A stretch of 56,013 bases of DNA from the NCBI GenBank assembly GCA_030524715.1, contig JAUNGB010000026.1, positions 1 through 56,013 of the forward strand. Reading direction: 5' to 3'. This document shows positions 8,011 through 33,601 of this stretch, in pieces. Under the pieces are notes generated by a model. That model saw only the letters and a list, made by a program, of their open reading frames with translations, did not search any database and was not told the DNA's origin. Origin of the DNA: Eubacteriales bacterium. Lineage in GTDB: Bacteria > Bacillota > Clostridia > Lachnospirales > Lachnospiraceae. The position numbers and the translations under genes were made by a program. Each line of letters starts with the position of its first letter. Positions within the stretch are counted from its first letter, which is position 1.

Positions 8011-8014
8011 TTCT

Positions 8015-8043: not shown

Positions 8044-8060
8044 GCAGGATTTCCGGAAAT

Positions 8061-8258
8061 TTATAAAGCATATTCCTCCAACAGTTCCATTTGGAATCTG
8101 CTGTCCACGATTGAGCGGTTCAAATCCCCTGTACGGTTATCCTCTAACAGCATCTGATTCAGACGATTAATTCGATTTTCATTTAATCCTTGCTGCATAC
8201 CTTGCTGTATCCCTTGTTCCATACCCTCTTTTATCATATCATTGATTGCCTTAGACAT
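8061..8258 (-). CDS. Putative internally initiated RpnS-like C-terminal protein (65 aa), copy 1
   Basis: In-frame with the parent Rpn gene (Met 258). The consensus Shine-Dalgarno AGGAGG at 8274-8269 is encoded inside a Pro-Gly-Gly stretch, 10 nt before ATG 8258. The product would start MSKAINDMIKEGMEQG and contain the 4-aa repeats and the dimerisation-type tail. In E. coli, Rpn small C-terminal products made this way inhibit the full-length toxin. Translation here is an inference from the ribosome site and its exact conservation in copy 2. Confidence 0.55.
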   Translation of the reverse strand: MSKAINDMIKEGMEQGIQQGMQQGLNENRINRLNQMLLEDNRTGDLNRSIVDSRFQMELLEEYAL

Positions 8259-15627: not shown

Positions 15628-15655
15628 AAAGAGAAAAAATCCTGCCGTTTGTAAA
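15628..15655 (-). promoter_or_regulatory. Group V sigma-type promoter of the lysin
   Basis: Minus strand TTTACA (15655-15650), 16-nt spacer, CTCTTT (15633-15628), continuing TATT. It lies 45 nt before the lysin ATG, which has AAGGAG 7 nt upstream. One of four such promoters in the window. Confidence 0.85.
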
Positions 15656-15692
15656 CAAAAGATCCTATGATTTTTATTTACTGTTTTAAACG

Positions 15693-15932
15693 TTACGGCT
15701 TTGCCGCTTTGCGCTTTATCACATATTCCCTGACGTCCTTGGAACTGTCTTCTTCAGGGCCTGCAGCGCCGGACTGCGCTATAAACCAGTGAATAATAGT
15801 CAGGTAATTCTTTTCCCTTTCATCCTGTCTCAACTCACGTTTCTCACTTGTTCTCACGATATAAACCAGTAAAAACAATACAGCCACTATCCAAAGCCCC
15901 TGAGGCCAAGCCGTTTCTAATACTGAAAGCAA
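15693..15932 (-). CDS. BhlA/UviB-family holin-like protein
   Basis: 79 aa from a TTG start at 15932 (AAGGAGG 8 nt upstream). One membrane helix near the N-terminus (GLWIVAVLFLLVYIV, about 12-26) is followed by a charged helix (EKRELRQDEREKN) and a basic tail, the layout of BhlA/UviB. UviB is the holin-like protein tied to bacteriocin BCN5 release in C. perfringens. It is preceded by TTGACA-N16-CTCTTT and followed by the lysin gene, so a holin-lysin pair for releasing or delivering leaderless proteins is the best reading. Confidence 0.8.
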   Translation of the reverse strand: MLSVLETAWPQGLWIVAVLFLLVYIVRTSEKRELRQDEREKNYLTIIHWFIAQSGAAGPEEDSSKDVREYVIKRKAAKP

Positions 15933-15975
15933 TAAAATCCCCTCCTTCCTGTTATTTTTTTAGCCGGCACTTTAT

Positions 15976-16003
15976 AAAGAGAATTATTTTTTGTTTTTGT
16001 CAA
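15976..16003 (-). promoter_or_regulatory. Group V sigma-type promoter of the holin gene
   Basis: Minus strand TTGACA (16003-15998), 16-nt spacer, CTCTTT (15981-15976), continuing ATAA. It differs from the other three by G for T at the third -35 base. The start codon is 44 nt downstream. No sigma-A -10 sits at the right distance. Confidence 0.8.
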
Positions 16004-16041
16004 CTAAAATCCAACAGTTATTAAAGCTAATTTTCCCGAAC

Positions 16042-16094
16042 ATAAAACAAGTCATGCCCTGCAGCAAATTACTGCAGGGCATGACTTGTTTTAT
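16042..16094 (-). terminator. 23-bp perfect hairpin overlapping the lanM 3' end
   Basis: The arms 16042-16064 and 16072-16094 are perfectly complementary (ending CCCTGCAG / CTGCAGGG) with a 7-nt loop holding the lanM stop codon. The last residues of LanM are encoded in one arm. A near copy ends the sigma-factor gene at 21628-21680. Confidence 0.85.
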
Positions 16095-18855
16095 AGAATT
16101 TGATCAAAGCATATCCCACACCTGAAATTCCATTCATGAAAGCAGGATTCAAATATTCAGCAGCACTGAGTTTCTGTTTATCTTGCAGACGATCAAGTAA
16201 ACTGTTTATCCCCTGAACATATCTTCGCTTAAATTCCGGGCTGTCATGGACTTCTAAATACTTCTGCATAATCAGAAGATTTCCGGCAAGACCATGACAC
16301 AGACATATTTGTCCACCGTATTCCCCGGTAAATAACGCCTGCGAAGCACGTCTGATATCTGTAGAAACTTTCTCTGAATCCAGGATACTTTCCAGTTTAA
16401 GCCGTGACAGAAGAATCCCCGGAGCGCCATGGCACCACGCATTCATAGTGTGCGTTTCCTGCTCGGATTCTCTTAAATCAATCCAGTTTCCTGCCTCTTC
16501 CGAATACAGAGAATCTTCGTACTCCAGCAATGAATGTATCTTCTTCAGGTAGCGGACGTCTCCCGATACTTGGTACAAATCCGCATATGCCATCAAAAAT
16601 CCGCTGTTCCCATGGGCCATTCCCGCTAAAGGTTTCTGCATATGCTCCAGCTTCCATCCGCAGCCATGCTCATTTTCCTGTCTGCGGCTCCACAGAGTTT
16701 CCTCTGTCTGTACCGCCAAATCCAGATAGCTTTGATTTTTAGTTATACGATAAAGTTCCAGTATTGCTATGACAGCGCCTGCATTACCGCTGAGATAATC
16801 ATAACCAGTATCTTTTAACAGATCGTATTGTATCCCATAAAAATGTTTCTCAGCATATCGAAGATAACTATTTTTGCCTGTGAGCTTATACAAATACAGA
16901 TATATGGATATAAATGAACTCTCACCGTCAATCAAGCCTGTTTTTCGCGTTACTTCACAGTTCCTTCGAACCTCCAGGCCGTCTGTATACCGCATCATCT
17001 TTTTTACCGACAAATCAAAAATCTCCTGTGCTTTTGAATGTTTGAAAATCCGAAGATACTCTGATAAAAACAAAACAATTCCTGATATACCGCTGTAAAG
17101 ATACATCTCTGACGGCACCAGACGCCATCGTTCTCTGCCGCAAAACTGCAGCCCAATCCATTGGATATCCTCTCCTGCCACAACAGCATTTTCACATATC
17201 CACGTAACAATCTCCTGAATCTGCTCTTTTAAACGATATTTCTGCAAAGACGCAGATGGTGGTTGGCTATTGTATGTTTCCCATTTGTTATCCGGCATTC
17301 TGCGGCAAAGCATTGCTATTGATATCCGTATCAGATCACACTGCTTTTGCATATCTTTTAGCGTCATTTGGTTCATATGCTTTTTCCATCCGTCATATGG
17401 CGTACATGGAAAATAATTTTCATAGTATCCACCGTTTCCATCATAAATACCACGGCCCATCCCTTCCATTTCAAAATACGGAATCTCATTTTGTACAAGG
17501 TCGGAAATCTCATAATCATGAATCTTTCTCTGTAACTGTGTCTCACCTGCTTTGTGAATTACTGATAATAAACTTTTCCTCTGTTCTATCCCTCCCATAT
17601 AATCCGGATGCAAAGACGCTATCCAATACATTACATACTGCTGCGTATGGCGAAGAACAATCCTCGATGTTCCATAAAAAAAGCCGGACAGCAGTTCCTT
17701 TACATAATTGTCTGTAAGTACCGTGAGATATGCAGACTGAAATCCCTGTATCAGTTTTTCCACATAATCTCCGCCATTTACAGCTTGTCCCTTTAATCTT
17801 ACAACGCATTCTTTCATTTCAAATTCCAGCGGCTCATAATCAATATACATCTCGGAGGTTTCCGGTTTCTTCACCACAGGCATACGGAAGGGTGTGGTAA
17901 TTTTCGCTCCATTGCCCATAGCGCTCATTACCACAGTCTGACTTCCCTGTCCCCAGGTAAGTACCGGAAGCATTCCCGTATGGATCACGGAGCCTGCCAG
18001 TATGGTTTCTGTCTTTCTATCTGCACTACCTTCCTCTGTTTGAATAAAATATCCCGGAAATGTTTCCATATCTACAATCACGGGATGTTCTCCATGGGCA
18101 ACGATATTTTCCCCATGAAGATCTGTTGCTGACAGGGCATACCCAATAAAAAGGTGAATGCCCATCCTGAAATAATATCGATCTACCTCCTCCTTTGTTT
18201 TACAACTTCTATTTTCAACATTTTCTTCCCAGCCATAAGTATCCCGGGATAAATATTGAACCTTTTTATAAGTGCTACCTGCTTTTTCACACAGGTATCC
18301 GTATACAGACTGATACTGTTTATTTCTCCGCAGGCTATGCGGTTTATAGTATAAAACAGCACCATTATCCAGCCGCACTCTGGCAGTACGCTTCCCTCCA
18401 TTATGAGAGTCGCCTGTAAACTGCAGCTCCGCTATCCCGGTAAAATCCTGACCGGAGCAGAAGCTTTTTACAATTTGTCCTTTATCTGCCTGAAGATTGC
18501 GGACGATTTCGCTTGCCATAGAATAAGTATTAGATACTTCCAATAAAATCAGACGGTATAATTCAGGAAATTCCTGAAATAAAGCCTGCATATGCGTTTC
18601 CTTATCCATCCACACATTATTATAGTAATCATACTGCTCTTCCGGTGTAGCTCCTAAAAGCCTGCCTTCTTCTTTTTTTCTATGTATATCAAGAATTAAG
18701 GTACGCAGTGCAATGTTACCAATGGATGAAATGAGTTGGTCTTTTACCAATTCTTTTATATCATATTCTATTGATATATTTTCGGCAGTGCTGCTGATTT
18801 TCTGTTCCTGTAAAGGAAATATTTCAGCAGCGTATTCACAAAATTTTTCAAACAT
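16069..18855 (-). CDS. lanM: Class II lanthipeptide synthetase LanM
   Basis: Bifunctional cytoplasmic enzyme, 928 aa: it phosphorylates and dehydrates Ser/Thr of the precursor, then closes (methyl)lanthionine rings. The dehydratase domain (DUF4135 type, about 130-520) shows the kinase-like motif ATDLHGENIVAHGEHP followed by VDMETF (near 243-262). The LanC-like cyclase (about 570-928) keeps zinc-ligand motifs WCHGAPG (near 806) and CHGLAGN (near 852). It starts 33 nt after the lanA stop and is the last gene of RR-kinase-lanA-lanM. No LanT transporter, LanP protease or LanFEG immunity gene is adjacent. Confidence 0.96.
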   Translation of the reverse strand: MFEKFCEYAAEIFPLQEQKISSTAENISIEYDIKELVKDQLISSIGNIALRTLILDIHRKKEEGRLLGATPEEQYDYYNNVWMDKETHMQALFQEFPELYRLILLEVSNTYSMASEIVRNLQADKGQIVKSFCSGQDFTGIAELQFTGDSHNGGKRTARVRLDNGAVLYYKPHSLRRNKQYQSVYGYLCEKAGSTYKKVQYLSRDTYGWEENVENRSCKTKEEVDRYYFRMGIHLFIGYALSATDLHGENIVAHGEHPVIVDMETFPGYFIQTEEGSADRKTETILAGSVIHTGMLPVLTWGQGSQTVVMSAMGNGAKITTPFRMPVVKKPETSEMYIDYEPLEFEMKECVVRLKGQAVNGGDYVEKLIQGFQSAYLTVLTDNYVKELLSGFFYGTSRIVLRHTQQYVMYWIASLHPDYMGGIEQRKSLLSVIHKAGETQLQRKIHDYEISDLVQNEIPYFEMEGMGRGIYDGNGGYYENYFPCTPYDGWKKHMNQMTLKDMQKQCDLIRISIAMLCRRMPDNKWETYNSQPPSASLQKYRLKEQIQEIVTWICENAVVAGEDIQWIGLQFCGRERWRLVPSEMYLYSGISGIVLFLSEYLRIFKHSKAQEIFDLSVKKMMRYTDGLEVRRNCEVTRKTGLIDGESSFISIYLYLYKLTGKNSYLRYAEKHFYGIQYDLLKDTGYDYLSGNAGAVIAILELYRITKNQSYLDLAVQTEETLWSRRQENEHGCGWKLEHMQKPLAGMAHGNSGFLMAYADLYQVSGDVRYLKKIHSLLEYEDSLYSEEAGNWIDLRESEQETHTMNAWCHGAPGILLSRLKLESILDSEKVSTDIRRASQALFTGEYGGQICLCHGLAGNLLIMQKYLEVHDSPEFKRRYVQGINSLLDRLQDKQKLSAAEYLNPAFMNGISGVGYALIKFYKTSHALQ

Positions 18856-18888
18856 GGCTGTTCCTTTTACTATTTATGTCCCCAGTAA

Positions 18889-19023
18889 TTAGCAACACAT
18901 ATATGTAAAAAGCGTACCTCCGCTTGTATATGCTTCTGCTTCCGCCATATCACCTTCTCCTAATTTTTCCACCTCATCCAATTCTTTCATAATATCACCT
19001 GAAACATTTTCTTTATTTTGCAT
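18889..19023 (-). CDS. lanA: Class II lanthipeptide precursor, 44 aa
   Basis: ATG 19023 with AAGGAG 8 nt upstream; TAA at 18889. The leader is acidic (KELDEVEKLGEG) and has a GDM-x-E-A-like stretch reminiscent of the mersacidin leader end. The C-terminus reads TSGGTLFTYMCC: three Thr in the last 13 residues, one Ser and two Cys, enough for at most two rings. A Gly-Gly precedes the last eight residues (TLFTYMCC), so a C39-type cleavage would give an octapeptide; cleavage at the GDM region would give about 14-18 residues. It sits between kinase and lanM. Such a small product next to an AgrC-like kinase could be a signal as much as an antibiotic. Confidence 0.9.
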   Translation of the reverse strand: MQNKENVSGDIMKELDEVEKLGEGDMAEAEAYTSGGTLFTYMCC

Positions 19024-19045
19024 ATTCTTTTCTCCTTATTGTACT

Positions 19046-20524
19046 TTACTCATTTATTATAATTGACGCTTCAAATTCACCCGCGTCATAGTGAAACATT
19101 ACCGAACCACCATACTTATCTACAACATGTTTTACACTTTCTATTCCCCATCCATGTTTATTGGTTTCCGCTTTGTCCGTAATAAACCGTCCATTCTTTA
19201 TATTAGGTTTTGATATACTGCTGTTTTTAAGCTTTAAAAAAAACATTTCATTAACATTTTGTATCGATAGCTCCACTTTTCTGTTTTGGATATCACATTT
19301 TGCGGCGGCTTCGATCGCATTGTCAAATAAGTTTCCGAGTATTACGATAAAGTCTGTATCCTCCATGGGTATATCTTCAATTTTACAGTCTAAAACAAAC
19401 CTTATCTGCAATTCATCCATTTTTCTTTTCTTTATATTCAGCATAAAATCAAGTGTAGAAATTCCTGTCCAGGAACGTTTTTTCTCCTGAGTAAAATTAT
19501 TTTGATAACTTCTGAGAAAATCAGCGGCTTCCTGAATGTTATCGTTTGCAATACATTCCTGTAAATAGGAAACCATATGTTTTTCGTCATGAATTAAACA
19601 TCTATATCTTTCATAGGCATCATTTAATTCATGATATTGACTTCCTACCGTTTCATTTCGAACCTCAAGAAGCCTTTTCTCTGTATCTATCATTTTACTC
19701 GAAGATTTAATATATAAAATTAATAAGACAAAGATAATTGCCACTACTATCGTTAAAGTACCGGTAAAATTTTTATCATTTATTTTTCCTATTCCACTGT
19801 TCATAAGTATATCTAAAACTATAAATTCAATAATTGCCACTATTGCCATAATTCTTTTGTATTTATATAATATCTTATCCATAAGATATTGTACGGGAAT
19901 ATACCTTAATAAAATCAGCAATACTACGCATATTATTAATAAATATACAATTTCACTATACGTATGTATTCTGGGAAAGTAAAAAAAATCCTCAAAATGT
20001 TTACCCTGAAGTATGCCAGCGCAAACAATATAACTTCCCTTTAGCAGCCCCATATTTGTAAGATATAAAAGCTCCCACAAATATGCCTGTAATAACGTAC
20101 ACTGATAAAAGGCAAACAAATAAAACACCGGAAATATATTTCCCAATATTATTGCATTTTCAGATAAAAACGCACTCCAGTATTGGAAACTAATTATAAG
20201 TACCATTTCCCCAAATAAAATAGTAATAACAACATTGGCTTCTGCTTTTCCAAATTGTTTTTTTACTAACTTATTCAGAAGTAAGGCAAGTACGACGGCA
20301 CAATATAATGCAATTACTATTTTCGCACACGCATCTTCGTTTTCAAATTTCCAATAGAATGTCAGAAAGTTGTAAGCACTTGAAATAATAAGCGTCAATA
20401 ATGCTATTTCACTAAAAAGATGTCTTTTTTTCATATTCCTTCTTTTAGGAACCGCCTGCGCAAATGCCCATATCCCGATCCCGGTTTCTAAAAATGCCGC
20501 CAGTCCATATAATATTTGTAACAT
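19046..20524 (-). CDS. AgrC/HPK10-like sensor histidine kinase (peptide-sensing type)
   Basis: 492 aa from ATG 20524 (GGGGGTG 6 nt upstream); an upstream start at 20554 would overlap the regulator. Six to seven hydrophobic segments cover residues 1-270, with no extracellular domain of note. The cytoplasmic part has the H-box RCLIHDEKHMVSYLQ (near 335), the N-box VILGNLFDNAIEAA (near 400) and the G-box KHGWGIESVKHVV, a GHKL ATPase of the HATPase_c_5 kind. These kinases typically sense small secreted peptides and pair with LytTR regulators. It lies 4 nt after the regulator and 22 nt before lanA. Confidence 0.9.
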   Translation of the reverse strand: MLQILYGLAAFLETGIGIWAFAQAVPKRRNMKKRHLFSEIALLTLIISSAYNFLTFYWKFENEDACAKIVIALYCAVVLALLLNKLVKKQFGKAEANVVITILFGEMVLIISFQYWSAFLSENAIILGNIFPVFYLFAFYQCTLLQAYLWELLYLTNMGLLKGSYIVCAGILQGKHFEDFFYFPRIHTYSEIVYLLIICVVLLILLRYIPVQYLMDKILYKYKRIMAIVAIIEFIVLDILMNSGIGKINDKNFTGTLTIVVAIIFVLLILYIKSSSKMIDTEKRLLEVRNETVGSQYHELNDAYERYRCLIHDEKHMVSYLQECIANDNIQEAADFLRSYQNNFTQEKKRSWTGISTLDFMLNIKKRKMDELQIRFVLDCKIEDIPMEDTDFIVILGNLFDNAIEAAAKCDIQNRKVELSIQNVNEMFFLKLKNSSISKPNIKNGRFITDKAETNKHGWGIESVKHVVDKYGGSVMFHYDAGEFEASIIINE

Positions 20525-20528
20525 ATTC

Positions 20529-21233
20529 TCACCCCCAAAAATCCAACATTGCACATTTTAATCCCGGCAGCCTCGACTCCCGCATTACCAATATAGTTCC
20601 ATTTCTCATATATACATCATAACCCGTTATTTTCATGACATGCCGGAGGTTTACGATATATCCCTTATCGATCTGATAAAATCCTCTGGAATTCAGTTTA
20701 TCCAGAACTATAAAAAGAGGGATTTTCTGTTTACTCTTGCCTTCCCTGTGAACAAACACTGAATTATTCCCTTCTCTTTTGATGTAATAAATATCCGAAC
20801 AGGCAATTTTCTCTATTTCTTTCTTTTTTTCAATCACATAATAGTATTCTTCCTTTTCCATAATTTCAGGAAGAAGTGCATCGTAGGATTCCGGAAGTTT
20901 TTTGTCACATACCATCTTAGGAATATAACGGTATGTATTCACCTCATATGCTTCCACCGCATAATCAATGTAATTGGTTACAAAAATAATGACAGGTTCC
21001 GGATAAAGTTTACGGATTTCCTTTGCCACCTGTATGCCGTTCATCCCCGGCATTTCCACATCCAGAATATACAGATCAAACGCTTCTTCTCTTAATCCGC
21101 TAAGGAACCATTCTGCATTCTTATAAGTTTTTGTTTCATAGATAATTCCTTTCCCTCTGAAATACTCTTTTGTAATTTCCTTAATCTTGACTAAACATGT
21201 TTCCTCATCATCCAAAATGGCGATATTAAACAT
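20529..21233 (-). CDS. LytTR-family response regulator of the lanthipeptide operon
   Basis: 234 aa, first gene of the operon. The receiver domain has ILDDEE at the start and phospho-Asp in DLYILDVEMPGMNG. The LytTR DNA-binding domain (about 135-230) has EKIACSDIYYIKREGNN and YQIDKGYIVNLRHVMKI. GGAGA lies about 10 nt before the ATG. It is a clear paralogue of 12902-13606, including the shared stretch VDYAVEAYEVNTYRYIPK (or IDYAVEAYEVNTYRYIPK). It probably binds the AAGGACA repeats upstream of its own operon, giving autoinduction. Confidence 0.92.
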   Translation of the reverse strand: MFNIAILDDEETCLVKIKEITKEYFRGKGIIYETKTYKNAEWFLSGLREEAFDLYILDVEMPGMNGIQVAKEIRKLYPEPVIIFVTNYIDYAVEAYEVNTYRYIPKMVCDKKLPESYDALLPEIMEKEEYYYVIEKKKEIEKIACSDIYYIKREGNNSVFVHREGKSKQKIPLFIVLDKLNSRGFYQIDKGYIVNLRHVMKITGYDVYMRNGTILVMRESRLPGLKCAMLDFWG

Positions 21234-21452
21234 TTTCCTTTTCTCCTTAACTGTATTTGCATATTATTCAATAGTCCTTTCTTATTACTGTCGTCTCATA
21301 TAGTTTCAGCATCACCTCCCTTTTTGCAGTTTTTCCATGATAGCAGAAAGCCCCTCATTATATAGAGAGTTGAATCATTACAGGGAAATTGTTAAAATAT
21401 GGTAATCTGAAAGGAATATTACAAATAATAGCACTTCCTTTCACCGGAACAA

Positions 21453-21544
21453 AGTATAGCATGTATTTTTCAAATTTTCCGAACTGTCCTCCAAATAGGT
21501 CAAAATGTCCTTCAAATACTTATCGCGCAGATAAAGGACAGTTC
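21453..21544 (-). promoter_or_regulatory. LytTR-type promoter of the RR-kinase-lanA-lanM operon
   Basis: Minus strand: AAGGACA (21512-21506), 14 nt, GAGGACA (21491-21485), 26 nt, TATACT (21458-21453). A third box in the opposite orientation, AAGGACAGTTC (21534-21544), forms an inverted repeat with GAACTGTCCT (21481-21490). The untranslated stretch 21234-21452 holds only very short frames, such as a 14-codon one near 21300, that I cannot support. Confidence 0.75.
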
Positions 21545-21627
21545 TGCCGAATATCAGAACGCAGATAAGCATTCCCCTCTTCAAGTGCGCAGGGCGCTAA
21601 GCGGTGGATATGCATTGCTCAAATTCT

Positions 21628-21680
21628 ATAAAACAAGCCATGCCCCGCAGTAATTTACTGCAGGGCATGGCTTGTCTTAT
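21628..21680 (-). terminator. 23-bp hairpin at the sigma-factor 3' end
   Basis: Arms 21628-21650 and 21658-21680 match at 21 of 23 positions around a 7-nt loop; the stop codon is in one arm. The sequence is a near copy of the lanM terminator hairpin at 16042-16094. The stretch 21545-21627 beyond it shows nothing I can name. Confidence 0.8.
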
Positions 21681-22195
21681 GCCCGGGAAAAATAGTCTGT
21701 GATCAATTTCTTTTTCACCCGGTTGACATATTGGCGGGAAACTTGTAATTTCTCCGCAATTTCCGTATCACTTTTATCCTCATAAAAATACATGCACAGA
21801 ATCTTCTTTATACTGTCATTCGGAAGAGTATTTATGTACGAAACAACGTCATAGTAGGTTTCGTCAAATGCAGGCGGCGCCTGGAGCGTAGAAGAACTTG
21901 CTTCAAGATCTTCTATTGTCGGTACAGAAAGATGCTGCTTGCATAAAGCGTAGTAGCGGTTTACCACAGTCGCTTTCATATAATTGACGCATTTTCCCTC
22001 CTTGCGGTTGGTATTCAGATAAGGAAGAGACTCCAGTAAGGCAATGTATAATTCCTGAAGTGCATCCTCATATTCCATACAATGAATTTGTGCCGCATAT
22101 TTTTTTACCAGTGGCGTCATTTGCTCTAAAATCTGGGCGCTGGCCTCAGCAGAACCGGACTGGTATTTCTCAATAAGTGATAAAATGGTTTCCAT
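21677..22195 (-). CDS. Sigma-70-family factor resembling TcdR/UviA/BotR (group V)
   Basis: 172 aa, the size of TcdR and UviA. The region-2-like part (about 40-95) contains EDALQELYIALLESLPYL; the region-4 helix-turn-helix (about 130-168) contains KSDTEIAEKLQVSRQYVNRVKKKL. AAGGAGG is 7-8 nt before the ATG. No anti-sigma gene is adjacent. It is divergent from the 618-aa protein gene. Group V factors direct transcription of clostridial toxins and bacteriocins from TTTACA/CTCTTT-type promoters, and four such promoters are in this window. A generic ECF factor cannot be excluded from the protein alone. Its own promoter is not of that type; an extended -10 TGTTATACT lies near 22312. Confidence 0.8.
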   Translation of the reverse strand: METILSLIEKYQSGSAEASAQILEQMTPLVKKYAAQIHCMEYEDALQELYIALLESLPYLNTNRKEGKCVNYMKATVVNRYYALCKQHLSVPTIEDLEASSSTLQAPPAFDETYYDVVSYINTLPNDSIKKILCMYFYEDKSDTEIAEKLQVSRQYVNRVKKKLITDYFSRA

Positions 22196-22471
22196 AAAAA
22201 CTGCCTCCTTTTAAATGGAAGTAGTGATCGAATCGAAATTCAGAAACCCAAAATAAAAAATATTTAATGCAAAGCATAAAAAGGTGACAATTACTATGTA
22301 AGTATCAAAAGTATAACAAAATTATTTAATAGTTGCTGAAAATGGGAATTAACTATATCTGATTGGGTTTGAAAACCATAAAGCCTGTGTTAAGGGACAG
22401 AAAATCCATTTTGGTAAATAGTCAGGATTGGTTTTGGAATACGAAATATTAAATAAAAAAATAATTTGCTG

Positions 22472-22499
22472 TTTACAATTTGCATCTTTTTTTCTCTTT
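22472..22499 (+). promoter_or_regulatory. Group V sigma-type promoter of the 618-aa protein gene
   Basis: TTTACA (22472-22477), 16-nt spacer, CTCTTT (22494-22499), continuing ATG. It lies 61 nt before the chosen start codon. The rest of the divergent intergenic stretch (22196-22560) holds no other gene. Confidence 0.88.
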
Positions 22500-22560
22500 A
22501 TGTCATGTAAGCGCTTATAAAAAAAAGAAAACTGCAAAAGAAAGAAACGGAGGTACAAAT

Positions 22561-24417
22561 ATGAACTGTACAATGACAAACAATATGCTGACAGTAGTCG
22601 GAAGTCCGGTAGCGGGCGCACTTGTAAAAAACGTGACAAAAGATGGAGCAAGCTTTACTAATGTTGCCGGTGTGGCAGTGGTAAATACCACAAAATACTG
22701 TTTGAAAACTAATTCCAACAATCAATCGATTCTTGTATCAACACCCAAATATAAAACTGTCGATACAGCAATCGTAGATATGGATATTATCGACTATTAT
22801 TGTGTGGGATTAACAACAGACGGAAAAAATCTTTTTATGGTCGGTTCTGAATTGAACGGAAGTAAAAGATATGGACGGCTAATCAAATTTGAAATCAGCA
22901 CAAAGAAGCTTACCGTTTATAACCTGAACAATTCCTCCACAGACGGCGTATATGCGGGAATCGCATACTGTGGTAATAATTCGTTTTATCTGATTTCTTC
23001 TAAAGATTCCAATAAGACGATGGATGTTGTGAAATACAATTTATCAAGCGGCTATAAAAGCGGGGAAGGTTTTACTTTAGTAAACAGCGGATATGCTGAA
23101 ATGCTTCAGGATATTTTCTATGATTCGGCGCACGGTCTTTTTGTTGTAACGAACCAGAAAGACAGCGACGGAAAATATACGCCTTGTAAAAATATTGTTC
23201 TTTTATATGACCTGAAAAATAAGCCGTCCGGAAATCTTCGTGCAACATCCCGGTTCAGAGTGAATCTCAATACGAGTACATATAAACAGTATAATCTGGA
23301 ATCTGTATGTATTATTGAAAAACGGTTGGTTGCCGTAGCAAATGTCGTTACTCAGGCGGGTGCATCCCAGGATAAATTTCTCTATCTGAAGGGAATTGAG
23401 TTTGGTGAACGCGGTACATTTTTTATGGAACATGATGTAACTGTATTAGGGAAGCTTGGAAATAAACAGTTGACGTCAAGCGAGCAGGTAGATCCTGACA
23501 CAGAAGGCACGGTAATCATGACCGGTGCACAGTCTTTATCATGTGGAGTGAAGAATAATGCAAATGTTATTCAGGGCCTGAAAAACGGAAGAGCAAACTC
23601 TGATCCGGAGAAGCAGTATGATTACTTATTTACGCTGAAAAGTGATAATACGGTCGAATGGAATAAGCTGTTTAAATACAGTCCGTTATCTCAGTGCTTA
23701 TGGCATGGAAACAGTATGAACTATTACGATGGGTACTATTATATTGGATGCGCAGAACCCGAGGATGCAGATAAATATACGATTGTTAAGATGGATACAA
23801 GTGGAACTATCAAAACCAGATACACTGCGCCTGTCAGAACAATGGCGGTTGCCGGAGGATACGGTACCAGCAATTATTTTATTCTGATGTCCGGAAATGA
23901 CGGTGAAACATGGTATGATCCGGTGTTAAAAAAGAGTATTAAGCTTAGAATGCTGTATTTAGGTACATTAGAAGGAAGTGGTTCTTCCGCTAAATTTGTG
24001 GTAAAAGAAAAATTCTATTTTAAGGACACAACCGGGACAAATGTTACGCCGGGGACTCATTACATGCAGGATATTTGTTATTACAAAAATTACGGCCTGT
24101 TTGTTACTGTAAGTCTTTTGGAAGATAAGGAATCGGGTGTTGAATATAGAAATGATCTGGTTCATATTAATATTGACAAATATGAAACAATTACCTTAGA
24201 CAGCGGTGAATCAGCAAAAATGTTAGTACCGGACTTTTCTATGGTATATAAAGACCGCACGATTTTTTCTGATATCGAATTTGAGTCACCGACAATCAGA
24301 GAAACCGATGGTAAGATGCTGGTATGTGCCAATGCGCACAAATGGCCTGCGAGTACAGGCGGAAGCGCAGTTAGCTATGACTGTGTACTTCAGGTAGATG
24401 GTATTACCTTCTCCTGA
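22561..24417 (+). CDS. Large leaderless beta-rich protein, candidate toxin or bacteriocin (618 aa)
   Basis: Start at 22561 (MNCTMTNNMLTVVGSPVAGA) because GGAGG lies 8 nt upstream; an earlier in-frame ATG at 22480 falls inside the promoter. There is no signal peptide and no membrane helix. The chain has recurring beta-blade-like segments (KNLFMVGSELNGSKRYGRL, NNSFYLISSKDSNKTMDVV, GLFVVTNQKDSDGKY, YYYIGCAEPEDADKY), suggesting a beta-propeller. No catalytic motif is recognised. It has the strongest sigma-type promoter in the window, lies divergent from the sigma factor, and shares its regulation with the holin and two lysins. By analogy to BCN5 or large clostridial toxins it may be the released cargo; an extracellular binding protein is the alternative. 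Confidence 0.85.
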   Translation: MNCTMTNNMLTVVGSPVAGALVKNVTKDGASFTNVAGVAVVNTTKYCLKTNSNNQSILVSTPKYKTVDTAIVDMDIIDYYCVGLTTDGKNLFMVGSELNGSKRYGRLIKFEISTKKLTVYNLNNSSTDGVYAGIAYCGNNSFYLISSKDSNKTMDVVKYNLSSGYKSGEGFTLVNSGYAEMLQDIFYDSAHGLFVVTNQKDSDGKYTPCKNIVLLYDLKNKPSGNLRATSRFRVNLNTSTYKQYNLESVCIIEKRLVAVANVVTQAGASQDKFLYLKGIEFGERGTFFMEHDVTVLGKLGNKQLTSSEQVDPDTEGTVIMTGAQSLSCGVKNNANVIQGLKNGRANSDPEKQYDYLFTLKSDNTVEWNKLFKYSPLSQCLWHGNSMNYYDGYYYIGCAEPEDADKYTIVKMDTSGTIKTRYTAPVRTMAVAGGYGTSNYFILMSGNDGETWYDPVLKKSIKLRMLYLGTLEGSGSSAKFVVKEKFYFKDTTGTNVTPGTHYMQDICYYKNYGLFVTVSLLEDKESGVEYRNDLVHINIDKYETITLDSGESAKMLVPDFSMVYKDRTIFSDIEFESPTIRETDGKMLVCANAHKWPASTGGSAVSYDCVLQVDGITFS

Positions 24418-24486
24418 TTATAAGCCATCAATATTGAAAAATGTTTGTTGTGTTTCATAAAGAGTAATTAATTGCTCACTATAAAT

Positions 24487-24518
24487 ATCCCCATGCGCCG
24501 TTAGTGGCGCATGGGGAT
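24487..24518. terminator. Hairpin between convergent genes
   Basis: 13-bp stem ATCCCCATGCGCC with its complement around GTTAGT. It lies 70 nt after the 618-aa gene and 40 nt after the LRR gene that converges from the right. T-runs are weak on both sides. Confidence 0.65.
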
Positions 24519-24557
24519 AAAAATTTAAGAGGTTATAGCAAGCAGTAAATCGTTTGC

Positions 24558-26078
24558 TCAGCGGACTTTCACTGTTTTGGCTGCCGACCAGAAGCCGAAT
24601 ACTTTAGAGTTGTTGGAGCCGGTACGGTTATAAGCGTGAAGTCCTGCGTAGTAGGTTCCTTTTGGAACATTAGTAAAGGTTACTGTAACGGTGGAGCCAT
24701 TGGTGGCTTTTTTTACCAGTTTGCCATAATCCAACGGGCGTTTTTCGCCGTTTATATTTCCCATCCGTTTACCAAGGACTACATCATAGCCTGTGGCATT
24801 AGTGCATTTTGTATAGGTAACTTTTACGGTTTTTCCGGATACGGATACCCTGGTGATCCTGGGCTTGGAAGGTGTGGTTGCTGTAATCTTAAATTTTTTG
24901 CCGGCTGACCAGGGGCCATAAACTGTCTTTCCTGTGCTGTCTGTGCGGATACCCCGGCAGAATGCATAATAGGTGCCTTTCTGTAAGTAGTAGAACTCTG
25001 AGGTTTCGCGCGGTGTACGGTAGAACTGGCCTTTGGAAACGCTGTCCGCACTCTTACCAATGGCAAATTGGTATTTTGCCGCATTTTCAGAAGCCTTGCC
25101 GCGTGTAACTGTGGCGGAATTTCCGCTGACTTTGACAGAGGATACGCTTGGAGCAGTCATGGTTTCCGTGTTGGTGGCTTTAAACGGAATACCATGTTCC
25201 TTCGCATAGCTTTCCACATAAGAGCCTTTTGCAGAATAAATTGTAACGGAATCACTGCCGGAAAAAGCCGTAGGGCTGATATAGGTAATGGATGCCGGGA
25301 GAGTGATTTTGCGCAGTGCAGTACATTCTGCAAAAGCATAATCGTCGATTTTGCGCGTTCCATAATTGGGGATTGTAATTTCTGTAATCTTGCTGCAGCG
25401 GTGGAACGCATGATGCCCAATCTCATTAATATATTCTATATCATCATATGGAAATTCAATTTTTACAGAACCGGCTAATGTGCGGGAACCAAAGGCCGCA
25501 GTTTGCAAACCTACATAGTAGATTCCGTTTTTGTTGGTAAATTGGATATAATCATCTACTGCAATATAATGGAAATTGTGGCTTTTGGCAAATGCTGAAA
25601 GTACGCGGGAGCCCGTCTCATAGCTTTCACGGAAGGTTACGCATTCTACGCCCTCAAAGGCGTCCGGCGCAATCACTCCGGCAGGGCTAAAGCATCCGTC
25701 TCCTGTAACGCTATAGACTCCAAGATTATAGCAGCCTGAAAATGCCCGGGATTCAATGTTTTTTATAGAGTCCGGGGCCTCAATGTATTCTAATAAGACA
25801 CAGTTTGCAAAGGCTCCTTCCTTAATTGTAGTAACGGATTTACCGTTGACGCTGTCTTTAAGAGTTACTTTCTGACGGTTATCGCCCTTTTGGATCATGT
25901 AAGCATCCTCAGCGGAGTCATAAGTGTAGGTGACGCCGTCAATAACAACCGTTGCTTCCGGGGCCTCGGTTATTTCTGCTTCTGCCGCCGTAAAAATGTC
26001 AGATGCGGCGAAAGCCGGAATTGTACCGGATATGCTAAGCATACCGGATAATAAAACAGCAAGTAATTTTTTCTTCAT
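24558..26078 (-). CDS. Secreted BspA-like leucine-rich-repeat protein with Fn3-like C-terminus (second)
   Basis: 506 aa from ATG 26078 (AAGGAGG 8 nt upstream), starting with signal peptide MKKKLLAVLLSGMLSISGTI and a cut near PAFAA. The shared N-terminal motif (VDGVTYTYDSAEDAYMIQKG) is followed by LRR_5 units (GHHAFHRCSKITEITIPNYG, DYAFAECTALRKITLPAS) and two beta-sandwich modules. The final module (GYDVVLGKR, GTYYAGLHAYNRTGSNNSKV) is closely related to that of the LRR protein at 9494-11284. The promoter has the AAGGACA box with the same 27-nt spacing. It probably belongs to the same quorum or peptide-controlled surface set. No sorting signal is seen. Confidence 0.88.
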   Translation of the reverse strand: MKKKLLAVLLSGMLSISGTIPAFAASDIFTAAEAEITEAPEATVVIDGVTYTYDSAEDAYMIQKGDNRQKVTLKDSVNGKSVTTIKEGAFANCVLLEYIEAPDSIKNIESRAFSGCYNLGVYSVTGDGCFSPAGVIAPDAFEGVECVTFRESYETGSRVLSAFAKSHNFHYIAVDDYIQFTNKNGIYYVGLQTAAFGSRTLAGSVKIEFPYDDIEYINEIGHHAFHRCSKITEITIPNYGTRKIDDYAFAECTALRKITLPASITYISPTAFSGSDSVTIYSAKGSYVESYAKEHGIPFKATNTETMTAPSVSSVKVSGNSATVTRGKASENAAKYQFAIGKSADSVSKGQFYRTPRETSEFYYLQKGTYYAFCRGIRTDSTGKTVYGPWSAGKKFKITATTPSKPRITRVSVSGKTVKVTYTKCTNATGYDVVLGKRMGNINGEKRPLDYGKLVKKATNGSTVTVTFTNVPKGTYYAGLHAYNRTGSNNSKVFGFWSAAKTVKVR

Positions 26079-26180
26079 ACAGTATTCCTCCTTTGATCTG
26101 TTGGTTGTCCTTCTGATATTATAATACATGAGAAGGATGTTTTATTGCATTGTATTGGGATATTTTGAAATATGATTCAT

Positions 26181-26241
26181 ATTTTACCATATTATTGGCA
26201 TTTGGGGAGAATGTGTCCTTTATCTACGCTTTTTTGGGCTT
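26181..26241 (-). promoter_or_regulatory. LytTR-type promoter of LRR gene 2
   Basis: Minus strand: AAGCCCA (26241-26235), 14 nt, AAGGACA (26220-26214), 27 nt, TGG-TAAAAT (-10 at 26186-26181). The spacing and the TGGTAAAAT context are identical to LRR gene 1 although the spacer sequences differ. Confidence 0.72.
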
Positions 26242-26284
26242 CTGCCAAATGGGGATCACAGTCAAATAATTTCGTTGATTCCAG

Positions 26285-26312
26285 TTTACAAATCCCCTGA
26301 TTTTTACTCTTT
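26285..26312 (+). promoter_or_regulatory. Group V sigma-type promoter of the second lysin
   Basis: TTTACA (26285-26290), 16-nt spacer, CTCTTT (26307-26312), continuing ATAA. The lysin start is 60 nt downstream, about the same distance as for the 618-aa gene. Confidence 0.86.
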
Positions 26313-27315: not shown

Positions 27316-27358
27316 CATATAAAAAACAATGCCGCTTAGCGGCATTGTTTTTTATATG
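27316..27358. terminator. Bidirectional terminator between lysin 2 and the radical SAM gene
   Basis: Perfect 20-bp stem (CATATAAAAAACAATGCCGC with its complement) around TTA; A- and T-runs serve both directions. The radical SAM stop codon lies in the right arm. Confidence 0.9.
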
Positions 27359-28764
27359 GAAAGCGGTATATCTTCCTGCATGCAGCGGTATCCCTCTAAT
27401 GCGCGGGCGGTTTTCTCCACGTATCCTCCTTTAAAATACAGGCACTTTGCAGGGTCTTTCCCAAGCTTGTCTCCTGTATATGCAGTCGCAATGACACGGC
27501 ATCCCCCGCCGCAATAGGAAAATACAGGGCAAGAGGCGCACTCCCTGTTATGTGCCTTCAATTCTCCAAGAGTCGTACACACCTCGCAAAGATATCTGCC
27601 CTCCTGCAGATGTTTTCTGAGGCCGTCTTCTTTTACGTTTCCCAACCGGTCGTTGTGCCGGGCGTAATAGCCGGACATCTGGTTGCAGGGGAGCAGCTCG
27701 CCCTCCGCCGTAACTGCCGCCATTCCCCTGTTGGATGCGCATACAGGGCGGCTGTCACGATAACTCTTTTGGGAATAAGCCACAGGGCGCAGACGATACA
27801 ATTGCTGTTGGGGATACACATCTGCAAACTGCCAGGTAAATACCTTCATACGGCAGTCCGTCTTTACATATTCAGCTAAAAAGGAAAGCATTGCATCATA
27901 ATATTCCCCCAGCTCCAGGCAGACGCCTTCCGCATTCTCCTGCCAGCGGGGAGACTCCGTCGTGCGTATGACCCGCATAACCGCGACCCCCATATCGTTC
28001 AGCAGTTTTGCAGTAGGAAGCATAGTATGGACGTTCAGACGATGGACATTGGTTTGGGACATTACAGTAAACCCGTTCCTGATACATAATTCCATTGCAT
28101 GCAGCGCTTCCTTTTCAGCTCCCTTCTTGTTTCTCAGCCAGTCATGGTATCCGATTCCGTCAAAGGATATTTTCATGACAGGCTCACAGCCAATGGCTTT
28201 CAGCTCATCCAGTACAGCCTGGTCTATAAAGGCGCCGTTTGTATTAAGCTGCCCCACATACATTCCTTTTCTGTAAATCTCTCTTATAATATCCAGAAAA
28301 TGAGGATGCGCCATAGGCTCCCCGCCGGTAATGGTAAACTCGTTGATCCCGCAGGCAGCAGCTTCCTCTATGAAGCGCTTCGCCTCTTCCCATGTAAATG
28401 AGCTCTGCAGATGGCTGTTATCCACTGCGTTGAAGCAGTGCAGGCAGTTATAATTACATTTCCCCGTGATCATCCAGTTCACAGCAGGAAAGTAACGGTT
28501 ATCACAGAATCGGGGCTTCTGCCATTCCGTAAGCTCTTCCCCGGGTTCACAGACATTGATCAGCCCACGCTCTGCAAGAGAATCCAAAAGCTTACTTTCA
28601 GGCAGAGCATGGCGCCCGTCGCATTTGACAAGCAGCTCATATTCTTCCTGCTTTAATCCCGCGGCGTCACGCTTGCGCCATGTATAATAAGCATAGGGCA
28701 CAAGCCGCCACGAGCGCAGGGCAATATTTTTATTCAGCAGATAATACGAAGGTTCAGCACACAT
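27352..28764 (-). CDS. Radical SAM/SPASM peptide-maturation enzyme
   Basis: About 470 aa. The SAM-cluster motif is CNYNCLHC (near residue 102), followed by TITGGEP. The C-terminal SPASM/twitch region has many Cys (LPCNQMSGY, CEVCTTLGELKAHNRECASC, YCGGGCR), giving auxiliary Fe-S clusters. Such enzymes make thioether or C-C links in RiPP precursors. The N-terminal 90 residues may form a precursor-recognition (PqqD-like) domain. ATG 28764 or TTG 28782 can start it; both lie inside the precursor gene, so translation is coupled. The crosslink chemistry cannot be told. Confidence 0.9.
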   Translation of the reverse strand: MCAEPSYYLLNKNIALRSWRLVPYAYYTWRKRDAAGLKQEEYELLVKCDGRHALPESKLLDSLAERGLINVCEPGEELTEWQKPRFCDNRYFPAVNWMITGKCNYNCLHCFNAVDNSHLQSSFTWEEAKRFIEEAAACGINEFTITGGEPMAHPHFLDIIREIYRKGMYVGQLNTNGAFIDQAVLDELKAIGCEPVMKISFDGIGYHDWLRNKKGAEKEALHAMELCIRNGFTVMSQTNVHRLNVHTMLPTAKLLNDMGVAVMRVIRTTESPRWQENAEGVCLELGEYYDAMLSFLAEYVKTDCRMKVFTWQFADVYPQQQLYRLRPVAYSQKSYRDSRPVCASNRGMAAVTAEGELLPCNQMSGYYARHNDRLGNVKEDGLRKHLQEGRYLCEVCTTLGELKAHNRECASCPVFSYCGGGCRVIATAYTGDKLGKDPAKCLYFKGGYVEKTARALEGYRCMQEDIPLSI

Positions 28765-28990
28765 ATCTCTCGTGTTGGTCAAACCCGGCCGTTACGTCAG
28801 ACATACCGCCCACAGCGTTCTCAAGTTCCTCATCCGCAAGTTCTTCGGAAGAGAGTTTCCCGTAAAAGGCCCGGGCTTTTTCCTCTGTAAGTTCGATGCC
28901 GTTTTCCTTTGCAAGGGCTAACAGCTCCTCAGCGCTCTTTGCCTGTTTTGCTTTCTCCAATTGTTCCTTTGTAAGTTTAATTTCTGACAT
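28754..28990 (-). CDS. Nif11-type RiPP precursor peptide, 78 aa
   Basis: The leader (residues 1-62) is a Nif11/NHLP type: TKEQLEKAKQAKSAEELLAL, then LSSEELADEELENAVGG. Cleavage after Gly-Gly by the C39 peptidase of the transporter at 31385-33592 would leave MSDVTAGFDQHERYVC: 16 residues with one Cys at the very end and Asp, Tyr, Phe and Arg as possible crosslink partners. A GGGGAC site precedes the ATG. The 3' end overlaps the start of the radical SAM gene. It lies 187 bp after the transporter genes; a -10-like TGGTAAAAT sits in that gap near 29050. Confidence 0.92.
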   Translation of the reverse strand: MSEIKLTKEQLEKAKQAKSAEELLALAKENGIELTEEKARAFYGKLSSEELADEELENAVGGMSDVTAGFDQHERYVC

Positions 28991-29177
28991 TTCCTGTGTC
29001 CCCTTTCTTTTTTAGTTACAGTCAGATAGTTTCCTGCAGTTCCATTTTACCAGAAAACCGCCGGTTTTTAAAGGTTTATCACTGAATATTCACCGTTACT
29101 GTTCACCAATTCTTCCGGTCCTGTCCATTTCAATAATTTAACGAATAGTTTCCGTGGGTTTTAAAATGAGTCTCTCT

Positions 29178-31370
29178 TTATTCCCTCTCCCCGTCCAGCC
29201 GCTGTCTGGCCACCAGCCCGGCAAAGAATCCCCCTTGTCTGATCAGTTCGTCATAGGTTCCCTCTTCAACAATGCTGCCCTTATCAAGGACGAGGATACG
29301 GTCGCACTGTTTGATGGTGGACAATCTGTGGGCAATGACGATCCTTGTGCATTTCAGGCCGGCAAGAGAATCAGATACCGTCTTCTGAGTCAGGTTATCA
29401 AGGGCGGAGGTCGCCTCGTCAAACATGAGGATCTTCGGTTTTGGCGCGATGGCCCGTGCGATCATCAGTCTCTGCCTTTGTCCGCCGGAAACGCCGCCCG
29501 ACCCTTCGGAGATCACCGTATGCATTCCCATAGGCATATTCCGTATATCCTCTCCCATCCCCGCCATTTCCGCCGCCTCCCACGCCTCATCCTGCGTAAG
29601 CCAGGGAGCGGATATAATGATGTTGGAATAGATATCCCCCTGAAACAGCTTGCCGTCCTGCATCACCACGCCGATCTTCTGACGCAGGGATTTCAAATCC
29701 AGGGTGTTCAAGTCCTTCCCGTCGTAATAGACCGCTCCCTTCTGCGGCGTTTCAAACCCCAAAAGCAGACGCATCAGGGTAGATTTCCCGCAGCCTGTCT
29801 TCCCAACGATAGCCACATACTGGCCGGGGCGGATCTTCAGCGACAGGTCGTCGATCACATTTGGCATATCGTCCGTGTAGCGGAAGGAAACATGATTGAG
29901 CTCAATTGCTCCGTTGAGCCGATCGACAGCCTTTTTGCCGGTTCCCACCTCCGGCACGGTCTTGAATATGGGGTTTAACAGTTCCATCACCGGCCTGATC
30001 TGCGCAAAGCTGCCCGCTATGCCGATCAATGCGGTAAAAGCCCCCATAACCATCCCGTAAGCGGACTGGAAGGAATAATAATCTGCCAGTGGAATCTCTG
30101 TTTTAACAGAAAAATAATATATGACAAGGGCGCCCACAAGTCCGATGCAGGCGGAGACGACCTGGCTGACTTTTAATACCATAGGGGGATCGTATGTCAG
30201 CTTCGCAAGGGGAGCATACGTCTTCGCCCATTTTGCAAAGGCACGCTTCTCAGCGCCCGCCAGTCTGATCTTCTGCACACCTGCCACCAGCGAATAGGAC
30301 AGGCCGTACTCCTTCCCACTCTGTTCCATGATCCGCCTGGAAAGTCTTGCCTGCACAAGAACGCTGACCACCGACACCAACACGGTAGCAAGAATCACCA
30401 CAAGCCCGGGAAGCACCAGCCCCGGTCCATAGTATGCCATCTGCGGGATATACGCAAGGGAAAACACCGACATCAGCCCGATGGAAAGCACCGAGTTCAC
30501 CAGCATGCTGCTGATCTGGCCGATGTAGCTCATGCGGCTTGCCAGATCACCTGCGCTATAGCCCTTAAAGAAGCTTGCCGGAAGGCTTAAAAGCCTCGAC
30601 ATACCCGCCGCCTGAAAGGCGACATTCATCTTCGCAGTCAGCCGCTCCAGCACCAGTGTTTTATATGCTTCGATCAGTGTCTGGGATATGGAAGCGCAGA
30701 GCAGGAAAATAAATACGCTCACAAACACCTGCATACTGTGATAATTTATGACGTCAGAATAGATGATATTGTTGATATACGGCGGGAGCAGCCCTACAAG
30801 GGTTACGGCCAGCGTTGCAAACACAATCAGCAGATAATCGGATATGCGCGTGACAGACGCAATGTATTTCAGCAGATCCTTTATTCCAAGCTCCTTTAAG
30901 GGAAAGGGCTTATAAAAGCAGATCGCTTCGCCATCGACCATGGAGGCGGTCTTTCTGTTCAGCTTTATGCGTTTCCCGCTTTTCACATCAAAAAAATCAT
31001 ATCCCGAAAAGCCTCGGGGGATCAGCGCCACGGCGCTGCCGTCATCCCTTCTTGTACCCAGCATGGCGCCCACGGCGTCCTTATACCATTGGCCTTCTAA
31101 TTCCACCGTACGCCACATGATCCCCGTGGGACGCAGCAGATATTCCAGTTGATCCGCCGTATTGCTGATATTATCAGGAAGCTCCTGAGATTTCACATGA
31201 TAGTATTTTAATATTTCGTCAATGGCGCTTTTGGTCTTGCCCCGATCGTCGTGGAGCATATCGGAAAGCCGCTGCCCCATGATCGCGTCCGCCATACACG
31301 CAAAGCCTTCCGCAAATGCTTCGTCGTCCTGCCGTATCCTCTGTTTGATCTGTTCGTCAAACCATCCCAT
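29178..31370 (-). CDS. NHLM-type ABC transporter, permease/ATPase (no peptidase domain)
   Basis: 730 aa. The N-terminal cytoplasmic region (about 1-170) is characteristic of the second NHLM transporter subunit. Six membrane helices (about 180-450) are followed by the ATPase: Walker A GKTGCGKST, signature VSGGQRQR, Walker B ILMFDEATS and the H-loop AHRLST. It likely forms a heterodimer with the C39-containing transporter 14 bp upstream. The two genes and the HlyD-like gene are one operon with the precursor and radical SAM genes downstream. Confidence 0.93.
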   Translation of the reverse strand: MGWFDEQIKQRIRQDDEAFAEGFACMADAIMGQRLSDMLHDDRGKTKSAIDEILKYYHVKSQELPDNISNTADQLEYLLRPTGIMWRTVELEGQWYKDAVGAMLGTRRDDGSAVALIPRGFSGYDFFDVKSGKRIKLNRKTASMVDGEAICFYKPFPLKELGIKDLLKYIASVTRISDYLLIVFATLAVTLVGLLPPYINNIIYSDVINYHSMQVFVSVFIFLLCASISQTLIEAYKTLVLERLTAKMNVAFQAAGMSRLLSLPASFFKGYSAGDLASRMSYIGQISSMLVNSVLSIGLMSVFSLAYIPQMAYYGPGLVLPGLVVILATVLVSVVSVLVQARLSRRIMEQSGKEYGLSYSLVAGVQKIRLAGAEKRAFAKWAKTYAPLAKLTYDPPMVLKVSQVVSACIGLVGALVIYYFSVKTEIPLADYYSFQSAYGMVMGAFTALIGIAGSFAQIRPVMELLNPIFKTVPEVGTGKKAVDRLNGAIELNHVSFRYTDDMPNVIDDLSLKIRPGQYVAIVGKTGCGKSTLMRLLLGFETPQKGAVYYDGKDLNTLDLKSLRQKIGVVMQDGKLFQGDIYSNIIISAPWLTQDEAWEAAEMAGMGEDIRNMPMGMHTVISEGSGGVSGGQRQRLMIARAIAPKPKILMFDEATSALDNLTQKTVSDSLAGLKCTRIVIAHRLSTIKQCDRILVLDKGSIVEEGTYDELIRQGGFFAGLVARQRLDGERE

Positions 31371-31384
31371 GGCGCGCCTCCTTC

Positions 31385-33592: not shown

Positions 33593-33601
33593 GCTTTCAC
33601 C

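Follow-up and report, generated by a model that had tools for sequence, protein, structure and literature searches.

The window analysed here, a 56,013-nucleotide (nt) stretch of a Lachnospiraceae genome (contig JAUNGB010000026.1), probably carries a release module of the UviA/UviB type with a new cargo made of units of ~290 amino acids (aa). We give this reading a probability of about 0.72: a sigma factor similar to TcdR and UviA would act on one set of promoters in front of a holin gene, two lysin genes and the gene of a 618-aa protein without a leader. The initial annotation had proposed a release system with new cargo, and this proposal is supported by the kinship of the sigma factor, the promoter set and the recurrence of the arrangement elsewhere, while the release step itself is one that we infer. 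The arrangement is so far known from the release of clostridial toxins and bacteriocins; the cargo here is new.

Four promoter sites of the form TTKACA-N16-CTCTTT span 11 kb of the window in both orientations (Table 1), and all four were recovered where the initial annotation had placed them. The sites are intact and near-identical: every spacer is 16 nt long, every site continues as CTCTTTAT, and the -35 element is TTTACA in three sites and TTGACA in one. From the end of the -10 element to the start codon we counted 44 nt for the holin gene (TTG at 15932), 46 nt for lysin 1 (start 15582), 62 nt for the 618-aa open reading frame (ORF; start 22561) and 61 nt for lysin 2 (start 26373), in agreement with the range of 44-62 nt given earlier. 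In 100 dinucleotide shuffles of the window, the pattern occurred 0.05 times on average and never more than once. A search at three mismatches adds little (18 matches against 9.35 expected; standard deviation 3.05; maximum 17 in 100 shuffles). When the host genome was scanned as a whole (5,275,956 bases, or 5.28 Mb, in 210 contigs), the pattern was found at seven places, including the four in the window, and its reversed form at five; with the trailing AT added, exactly four places remained, all in the window.

The sigma factor has the size of TcdR and UviA, its gene is divergent from the cargo gene as originally described, and its region 4.2 contains SRQYVN. The motif SRQ has been proposed as a possible marker of the TcdR-related sigma group (PMC4031146). 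Among 20 TcdR-like factors, 19 have [S/T]RQ at this position (strictly SRQ in 15) and the twentieth has SKQ, compared with none of 11 control sigma factors. In a tree of 31 factors, which left out TcdR, BotR and TetR, the window sigma factor groups with holin-linked factors in a clade of 12 (support 95/92), with the factor of locus L060 as its sister (95/95). The adjoining clade of eight (94/90) holds the published uviA of the Terrisporobacter plasmid pTVTCOM2, whose uviA and uviB are named in PMC11253131; the sigma factor of this plasmid is homologous (tblastn E 1e-3 over 94% of the length). The extracytoplasmic function controls split off at 100/99, SigH and SigK lie on the TcdR-like side, and the branch joining all TcdR-like sequences is supported at 76/33 only. 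The general sigma-70 model matches the protein with 43.2 bits. The BotR model reaches 30.8 bits over residues 28-157 of 172, far below its equivalog cut-off of 138, so the protein is not BotR itself. The kinship comparison proposed with the initial annotation thus placed the factor beside the published uviA clade while leaving it far below the BotR cut-off, and we consider it likely to belong to the TcdR-related group. Matches at E 0.001 occur in 56 of 397 family genomes, the host genome included. No homologue was found in a general genome-contig collection with the window protein as query, and no plasmid with the L060 factor as query.

The other parts of the set were largely as first described. 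The predicted holin scores 49.8 bits against Pfam Holin_BhlA (cut-off 22.6), in keeping with its BhlA/UviB-like assignment; its gene lies ~5.7 kb from the sigma gene in a separate operon. Lysin 2, NlpC/P60-like as described, contains ELLD, NLPC_P60, Amidase_5 and PG_binding_1 domains. For lysin 1, described as lysozyme-like, a C-terminal PG_binding_1 domain was found and the N-terminal part has no Pfam family match; by eye, this part resembles L062:9017-9613.

Similar sets recur in the family. We fetched the neighbourhoods of 20 sigma relatives from the 397 family genomes, and the 12 best loci all have a holin nearby, 11 of them over the Pfam cut-off. The holin is of the BhlA family at six loci (L060, L061, L063, L067, L068 and L071, the first two being the same locus in two genomes) and of the Phage_holin_4_1 family, which we take to be TcdE-like, at five (L064, L065, L066, L069 and L070); L062 has a Phage_holin_1 match under its cut-off. 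Among the eight lower-scoring loci, L072 and L078 combine BhlA holins with lysins. By eye, L074:8155-10345 (minus strand) and L076:3360-5558 each encode, side by side, an SRQ sigma factor, a pair of small holin-like proteins and an amidase; this is another layout of the module, one that lacks a BhlA holin. Conversely, nine of the 13 BhlA holins over the cut-off in the 397 genomes lie at such sigma loci, the window included. The initial annotation knew of no such set in Lachnospiraceae: no report of these loci was found in the open-access literature searched. The module is not confined to the host genome and recurs across the family.

The promoter element accompanies these genes. TTKACA-N15..17 with a CTYTTT-like hexamer precedes 33 of 49 module genes, that is, the sigma, holin, lysin and cargo genes of these loci, compared with six of 223 others (Fisher p 2e-24, a descriptive value only, because the gene list, some starts and the -10 rule were set after the upstream sequences had been seen). 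When the window is set aside, together with L109 and L116, which were chosen by motif, promoters stand before 23 of 38 module genes. One of the six other genes with a promoter is a lysin gene, and one gene entered the count twice owing to the overlap of L065 and L116. The TTTACA hexamer in these loci is not an independent test, since the sites were picked by it. A looser pattern applied to 29 loci, with sites near a gene start or a palindrome, gave 29 rows, some of them duplicates, 28 of which are module genes. The -10 element varies among loci (CTCTTT, CTTTTT, CTCCTT), which accords with the non-conserved region 2.4 of this sigma group (PMC4031146). Outside the family, CTCTTT was seen upstream of a single PG-binding gene on a Clostridiaceae plasmid, where other genes have ATCTTT or a longer spacer. 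As far as can be told, a -10 element of CTCTTT or CTTTTT characterizes this branch. Both the promoter set and its association with holins are well supported, and the sigma factor would be the one that reads the four window promoters.

Leaderless genes stand under such promoters in other modules as well. In genome G157, locus L109 holds a second TcdR-like sigma factor with its own CTCCTT site and four CTCTTT promoters. These precede an operon that looks biosynthetic by eye (acyl carrier protein, AMP ligase), two lysin pairs, from which the one protein scanned is a Phage_lysozyme2 member, and two leaderless proteins of 538 and 534 aa. A leaderless protein of ~175 aa is common to loci L069, L072 and L078; apart from these three copies, its profile, run against 368 genomes, found only a fragment, at the same locus in G320. 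In G344, a leaderless Fn3/Rhs-repeat protein of 3,205 aa (L131:7261-16878, minus strand) has TTTACA-N16-CTTTTT and GAATTTGCAAATTC upstream, ~3 kb from a sigma gene and a Phage_holin_4_1 holin gene. At E 0.001, its last 500 residues have no Pfam match; we assume that this Rhs-like protein belongs to a polymorphic-toxin-like class.

The candidate cargo of the window consists of two copies of the ~290-aa unit. It shows no signal-like hydrophobic stretch, although the neighbouring leucine-rich repeat (LRR) protein and the holin do, and the shared promoter lies 62 nt upstream of its gene, so the description as a leaderless protein under this promoter holds. No significant PDB relative was found (the best profile matches were DUF4374 proteins, E >= 0.77), and by Pfam, NCBIfam, PHROGs and PDB searches the protein is neither a Bcn5-type bacteriocin nor a large clostridial toxin. 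The host genome holds five members of this family at four places, with one unit (C20, 309 aa), two units (the window protein, 618 aa; C72, 624 aa; C20, 601 aa) or three (C181, 851 aa). The C181 paralog, whose promoter reads TTTACA-N16-GTACTT, was found through the palindrome GAATTTGCAAATTC upstream, and its kinship was then shown by BLASTP. The 601-aa gene of C20 stands behind a BhlA holin gene with the promoter TTTACG-N16-GTACTT, and both C20 cargo genes have, by eye, TTTCCA-N16-CRTTTT. At C72, a Phage_holin_4_1 holin and a CHAP lysin are encoded 6-7 kb from the cargo copy. The promoters at the C181, C20 and C72 places are weaker than those of the window, and none of this type was seen upstream of the C72 copy. 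A second TcdR-like sigma factor of the host that might account for the -10 element GTACTT was sought and not found among the seven of 17 further matches that were inspected. In G027, the cargo-unit homologues of loci L163 and L164 contain a stop or frame break and are apparently decayed. No cargo homologues were found in general genome-contig and viral-contig collections, which is weak evidence of absence, because a homology search passed over the C181 and 309-aa C20 copies and the profile search of the 397 genomes did not list C181. A 419-aa protein of plasmid CP026603.1 was considered as a homologue and is unsupported (hhalign probability 1.6%). BspA-type LRR-like genes were noted by eye near cargo members at L022:6155-8035, L023:1582-2973 and 7307-8677, L129:12328-14163 and L163:7342-8649.

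Palindromes follow the -10 element at some of these promoters. Three of the four window promoters have perfect palindromes of differing sequence, and the holin promoter has one of only 6 bp; at L151, a 26-bp palindrome follows the -10 element. Elements of this kind are also seen in other genera. Palindromes of at least 10 bp occur at nine of 26 sites, compared with a mean of 1.8 in shuffles (maximum 7 in 1000), and in 7 of 193 control windows. The sequence GAATYTGCARATTC was found at 11 places in 16 genomes, against two for the reversed control. Six of the 11 precede module genes (lysin 1 of the window, the C72 and C181 cargo paralogs, the G149 and G072 lysins and the G344 giant gene) and five lie inside other ORFs. 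Hairpins in the RNA after the -10 element were also considered, and their free energies are no better than those of shuffles overall, with L065 as a clear exception. One palindrome, TAAGCGCTTA, presumably resembles a catabolite-responsive element (cre) of CcpA.

A promoter site of their own (p <= 0.05) was found for 12 of the 19 other sigma genes, and in 12 of 20 the best site lies 40-56 nt upstream, where two would be expected; the matrix was built from 29 sites, seven of which are sigma sites scored in this same test. TcdR has been described as auto-regulatory (PMC11237016). The pair of a GHKL histidine kinase and a LytTR response regulator downstream of the window sigma gene is a possible input to it. 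One or more Agr-like genes (AgrB-like, GHKL kinase, LytTR regulator) were seen by eye near sigma or BhlA holin genes at L064, L066, L070, L174 and L176, with AgrB not seen by eye at L070. Their position suggests quorum control of release.

The set can be compared with published loci. A sigma factor, a holin, an endolysin and leaderless cargo form the common set of the Bcn5 and large clostridial toxin loci (PMC9527704, PMC4885068). The UviA/UviB/Bcn5/amidase loci of Clostridium perfringens and C. algidicarnis likewise unite a sigma factor, a BhlA-family holin, an endolysin and a large signal-less protein in one locus (PMC9527704). In contrast to them, the window has an unrelated cargo, two lysins, a -10 element CTCTTT and a holin gene 5.7 kb from the sigma gene, and it lies in a Lachnospiraceae genome beside housekeeping genes. 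The TcdR/TcdE/TcdA-TcdB locus, for which CcpA and quorum inputs are reported, shares a group V sigma factor, a holin, a lysin or lysin fragment and signal-less cargo (PMC4885068, PMC9527704), whereas the window holin is of the BhlA rather than the TcdE type and the cargo is again unrelated. The UviA-like factor of C. baratii F7 also has SRQ in region 4.2, the -35 element TTTACA and a uviAB-like operon, but its -10 elements are GTTATA and GTATAT and its uviB-like gene overlaps the sigma gene (PMC4031146). Plasmid pTVTCOM2 likewise combines a homologous sigma factor with an annotated BhlA/UviB holin, and encodes two glycoside-hydrolase-domain proteins.

From these comparisons, a course of events may be proposed. 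A signal, perhaps passing through the GHKL/LytTR pair, would lead to synthesis of the sigma factor, which would steer RNA polymerase to the four local promoters and so yield the holin, the two peptidoglycan-cutting enzymes and the large leaderless protein. The holin would open the membrane or carry the lysins across it, and the lysins would open the wall. Export of the 618-aa protein would then bypass Sec, in the manner proposed for Bcn5 with UviB and reported for TcdA and TcdB with TcdE. The module would in this way release its cargo.

Several results weigh against the proposed module. Genome-wide, the motif with AT at one mismatch occurs at 11 places, and so does the reversed control; over 16 genomes, TTTACA-N16-CTYTTTA was found at 29 places against 30 for its reversed control; 16 of the 29 are at module loci by manual count. 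The genome-wide scan suggested with the initial annotation is thus favourable only in that the AT-extended sites are all in the window, and the signal lies in the clustering rather than in genome-wide number, because the genome-wide counts match the reversed control. The annotation had also taken TTTACA/CTCTTT as a promoter type of group V sigma factors. The -35 element is indeed stated to be TTTACA for the TcdR-related group (PMC4031146), and it alone is conserved in the published work consulted; the -10 element CTCTTT is unlike those published for botulinum clusters (GTTATA, GTTAAT or GTATAT; PMC4031146). On pTVTCOM2, no TTTACA-N16-CTYTTT lies within 170 nt upstream of the sigma gene, the holin gene or the adjacent glycoside-hydrolase (lysin) gene, and only a 362-aa ORF has TTTACA-N16-CTATTT. 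No significant site was found upstream of the window sigma gene itself (p 0.60). The BotR model matches six of 15 sigma relatives at E 0.001, fewer than the general sigma-70 model (14) and two unrelated sigma models (TIGR02985, nine; PRK09648, seven), so that model scores leave the sigma group unsettled; SRQ is not exclusive either, as a 128-aa YlxM-like protein of the host genome carries it. Four of the eight lower-scoring loci (L073, L075, L077 and L079) are ordinary neighbourhoods by eye. Three of the 13 BhlA holins have no such sigma factor within 1.5 kb, and one stands beside a cargo paralog on a contig without one. Searches of Pfam, NCBIfam and PHROGs at E 0.1 assigned the 618-aa protein to no family, its single-sequence AlphaFold model has a mean confidence score (pLDDT) of 33, and outside the host its profile finds only G027 and a marginal match in G264 among the 397 genomes.

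The lytic genes also admit other readings. Programmed lysis under the same sigma factor, in which a small number of cells would die and spill their content, with the 618-aa protein as one among many released molecules, is a serious contender that we nevertheless consider less probable than the proposed module, and it overlaps with that module, which allows for survival or death of the cell. Two lysins and a holin would suffice for lysis, and both lytic and non-lytic release are left possible for UviB (PMC9527704); yet passive spilling would not need a private promoter on the cargo gene, and TcdE-dependent secretion without lysis has been reported (PMC9527704). A decayed prophage lysis cassette, with the sigma factor as a late-gene activator and the 618-aa gene as a phage moron, appears improbable. 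In its favour, the holin and both lysins are phage-like, and PHROGs families of sigma factors and regulators match the sigma factor, as does, weakly (E 0.004) and through the helix-turn-helix of the sigma factor, a family of terminase small subunits. The lysin domain of lysin 2 brings matches to virion and tail families, and two gut records named "Bacteriophage sp." hold distant sigma relatives. Beyond those domain matches, however, none of 15 window proteins (9.5-38.2 kb) hits a PHROGs structural family; the four promoters are intact and near-identical in both orientations, and similar sets with other cargo exist in other genera and on a plasmid.

An intracellular role of the 618-aa protein, for example in partnership with the neighbouring BspA-type LRR protein or in protection from the lysins, would suit a protein without a known domain, and a joint function with the LRR protein is possible because LRR genes adjoin other cargo copies by eye. 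We regard this as unlikely, as unrelated leaderless genes occupy the same place elsewhere (538 and 534 aa in L109, ~175 aa in L069, L072 and L078, and 3,205 aa in G344). That the promoters are chance or housekeeping sites, look-alikes of a T-rich motif, would agree with the lack of genome-wide enrichment over the reversed control and is nevertheless very improbable, given four exact sites within 11 kb, when the window as a whole should hold 0.05, and given that other loci carry this element at genes of the same types.

Table 1. Features of the window discussed in the text (start and end in window coordinates).
Feature	Start	End	Strand	Remarks
Lysin 1, 353 aa	14521	15582	-	PG_binding_1 at C terminus
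Palindrome GAATTTGCAAATTC	15607	15620	.	after the lysin 1 promoter, ahead of the start codon
Promoter TTTACA-N16-CTCTTT of lysin 1	15628	15655	-	
Predicted holin, BhlA/UviB family, 79 aa	15693	15932	-	TTG start
Promoter TTGACA-N16-CTCTTT of holin gene	15976	16003	-	
GHKL histidine kinase and LytTR response regulator	19046	21233	-	444 nt downstream of sigma gene
TcdR/UviA-like sigma factor, 172 aa	21677	22195	-	SRQYVN in region 4.2
Promoter TTTACA-N16-CTCTTT of 618-aa cargo gene	22472	22499	+	
Palindrome TAAGCGCTTA	22508	22517	.	8 nt after -10 of cargo promoter
Leaderless candidate cargo, 618 aa	22561	24417	+	two copies of ~290-aa unit
BspA-type LRR protein (LRR_5)	24558	26129	-	signal-like N terminus; beside cargo gene; without such a promoter
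Promoter TTTACA-N16-CTCTTT of lysin 2	26285	26312	+	
Palindrome TCACCGGTGA	26323	26332	.	10 nt after -10 of lysin 2 promoter
Lysin 2, NlpC/P60-like	26373	27266	+	

The surroundings of the module hold further genes. Upstream of the holin gene lies a LanM lanthipeptide synthetase gene without such a promoter (LanM region 16069-19023), and immediately ahead of it (18889-19023, minus strand) a precursor-like ORF encodes 44 aa that end in CC. By eye, the LanM tail and terminator recur by the 3' end of the sigma gene (~21590-21680), pointing to duplication or recombination. Positions 27352-34087 hold a cluster of the NHLP/Nif11 type for ribosomally synthesized and post-translationally modified peptides, with a Nif11 leader peptide, a radical S-adenosylmethionine protein and two NHLM transporters. 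An ordinary T-box leader (7770-8004, minus strand) precedes the valyl-tRNA synthetase gene.

The recurrence of the set with different cargo allows a broader proposal, which we put forward tentatively and at slightly less than even odds: a TcdR/UviA-like sigma factor, a holin and wall hydrolases may form a general release system with exchangeable cargo across gut Lachnospiraceae, exporting large leaderless proteins (the 3,205-aa Fn3/Rhs-repeat protein; the family of one, two or three units) from TTTACA-N16-CTYTTT promoters, often with a palindrome just downstream. Published examples of release through a holin under a dedicated sigma factor amount to a few clostridial toxin and bacteriocin loci. 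Should such release be common among commensal Lachnospiraceae, a secretion route of the gut would have been overlooked. Candidate cargo can be listed from sequence by means of so distinctive a promoter, which, together with the palindrome, led here to an unannotated paralog and a giant Rhs-like protein. The question of lytic or non-lytic release through holins could thereby be addressed outside pathogens. If the reading with exchangeable cargo is true, clostridial toxin loci would be pathogenic offshoots of an ordinary secretion route of the gut.

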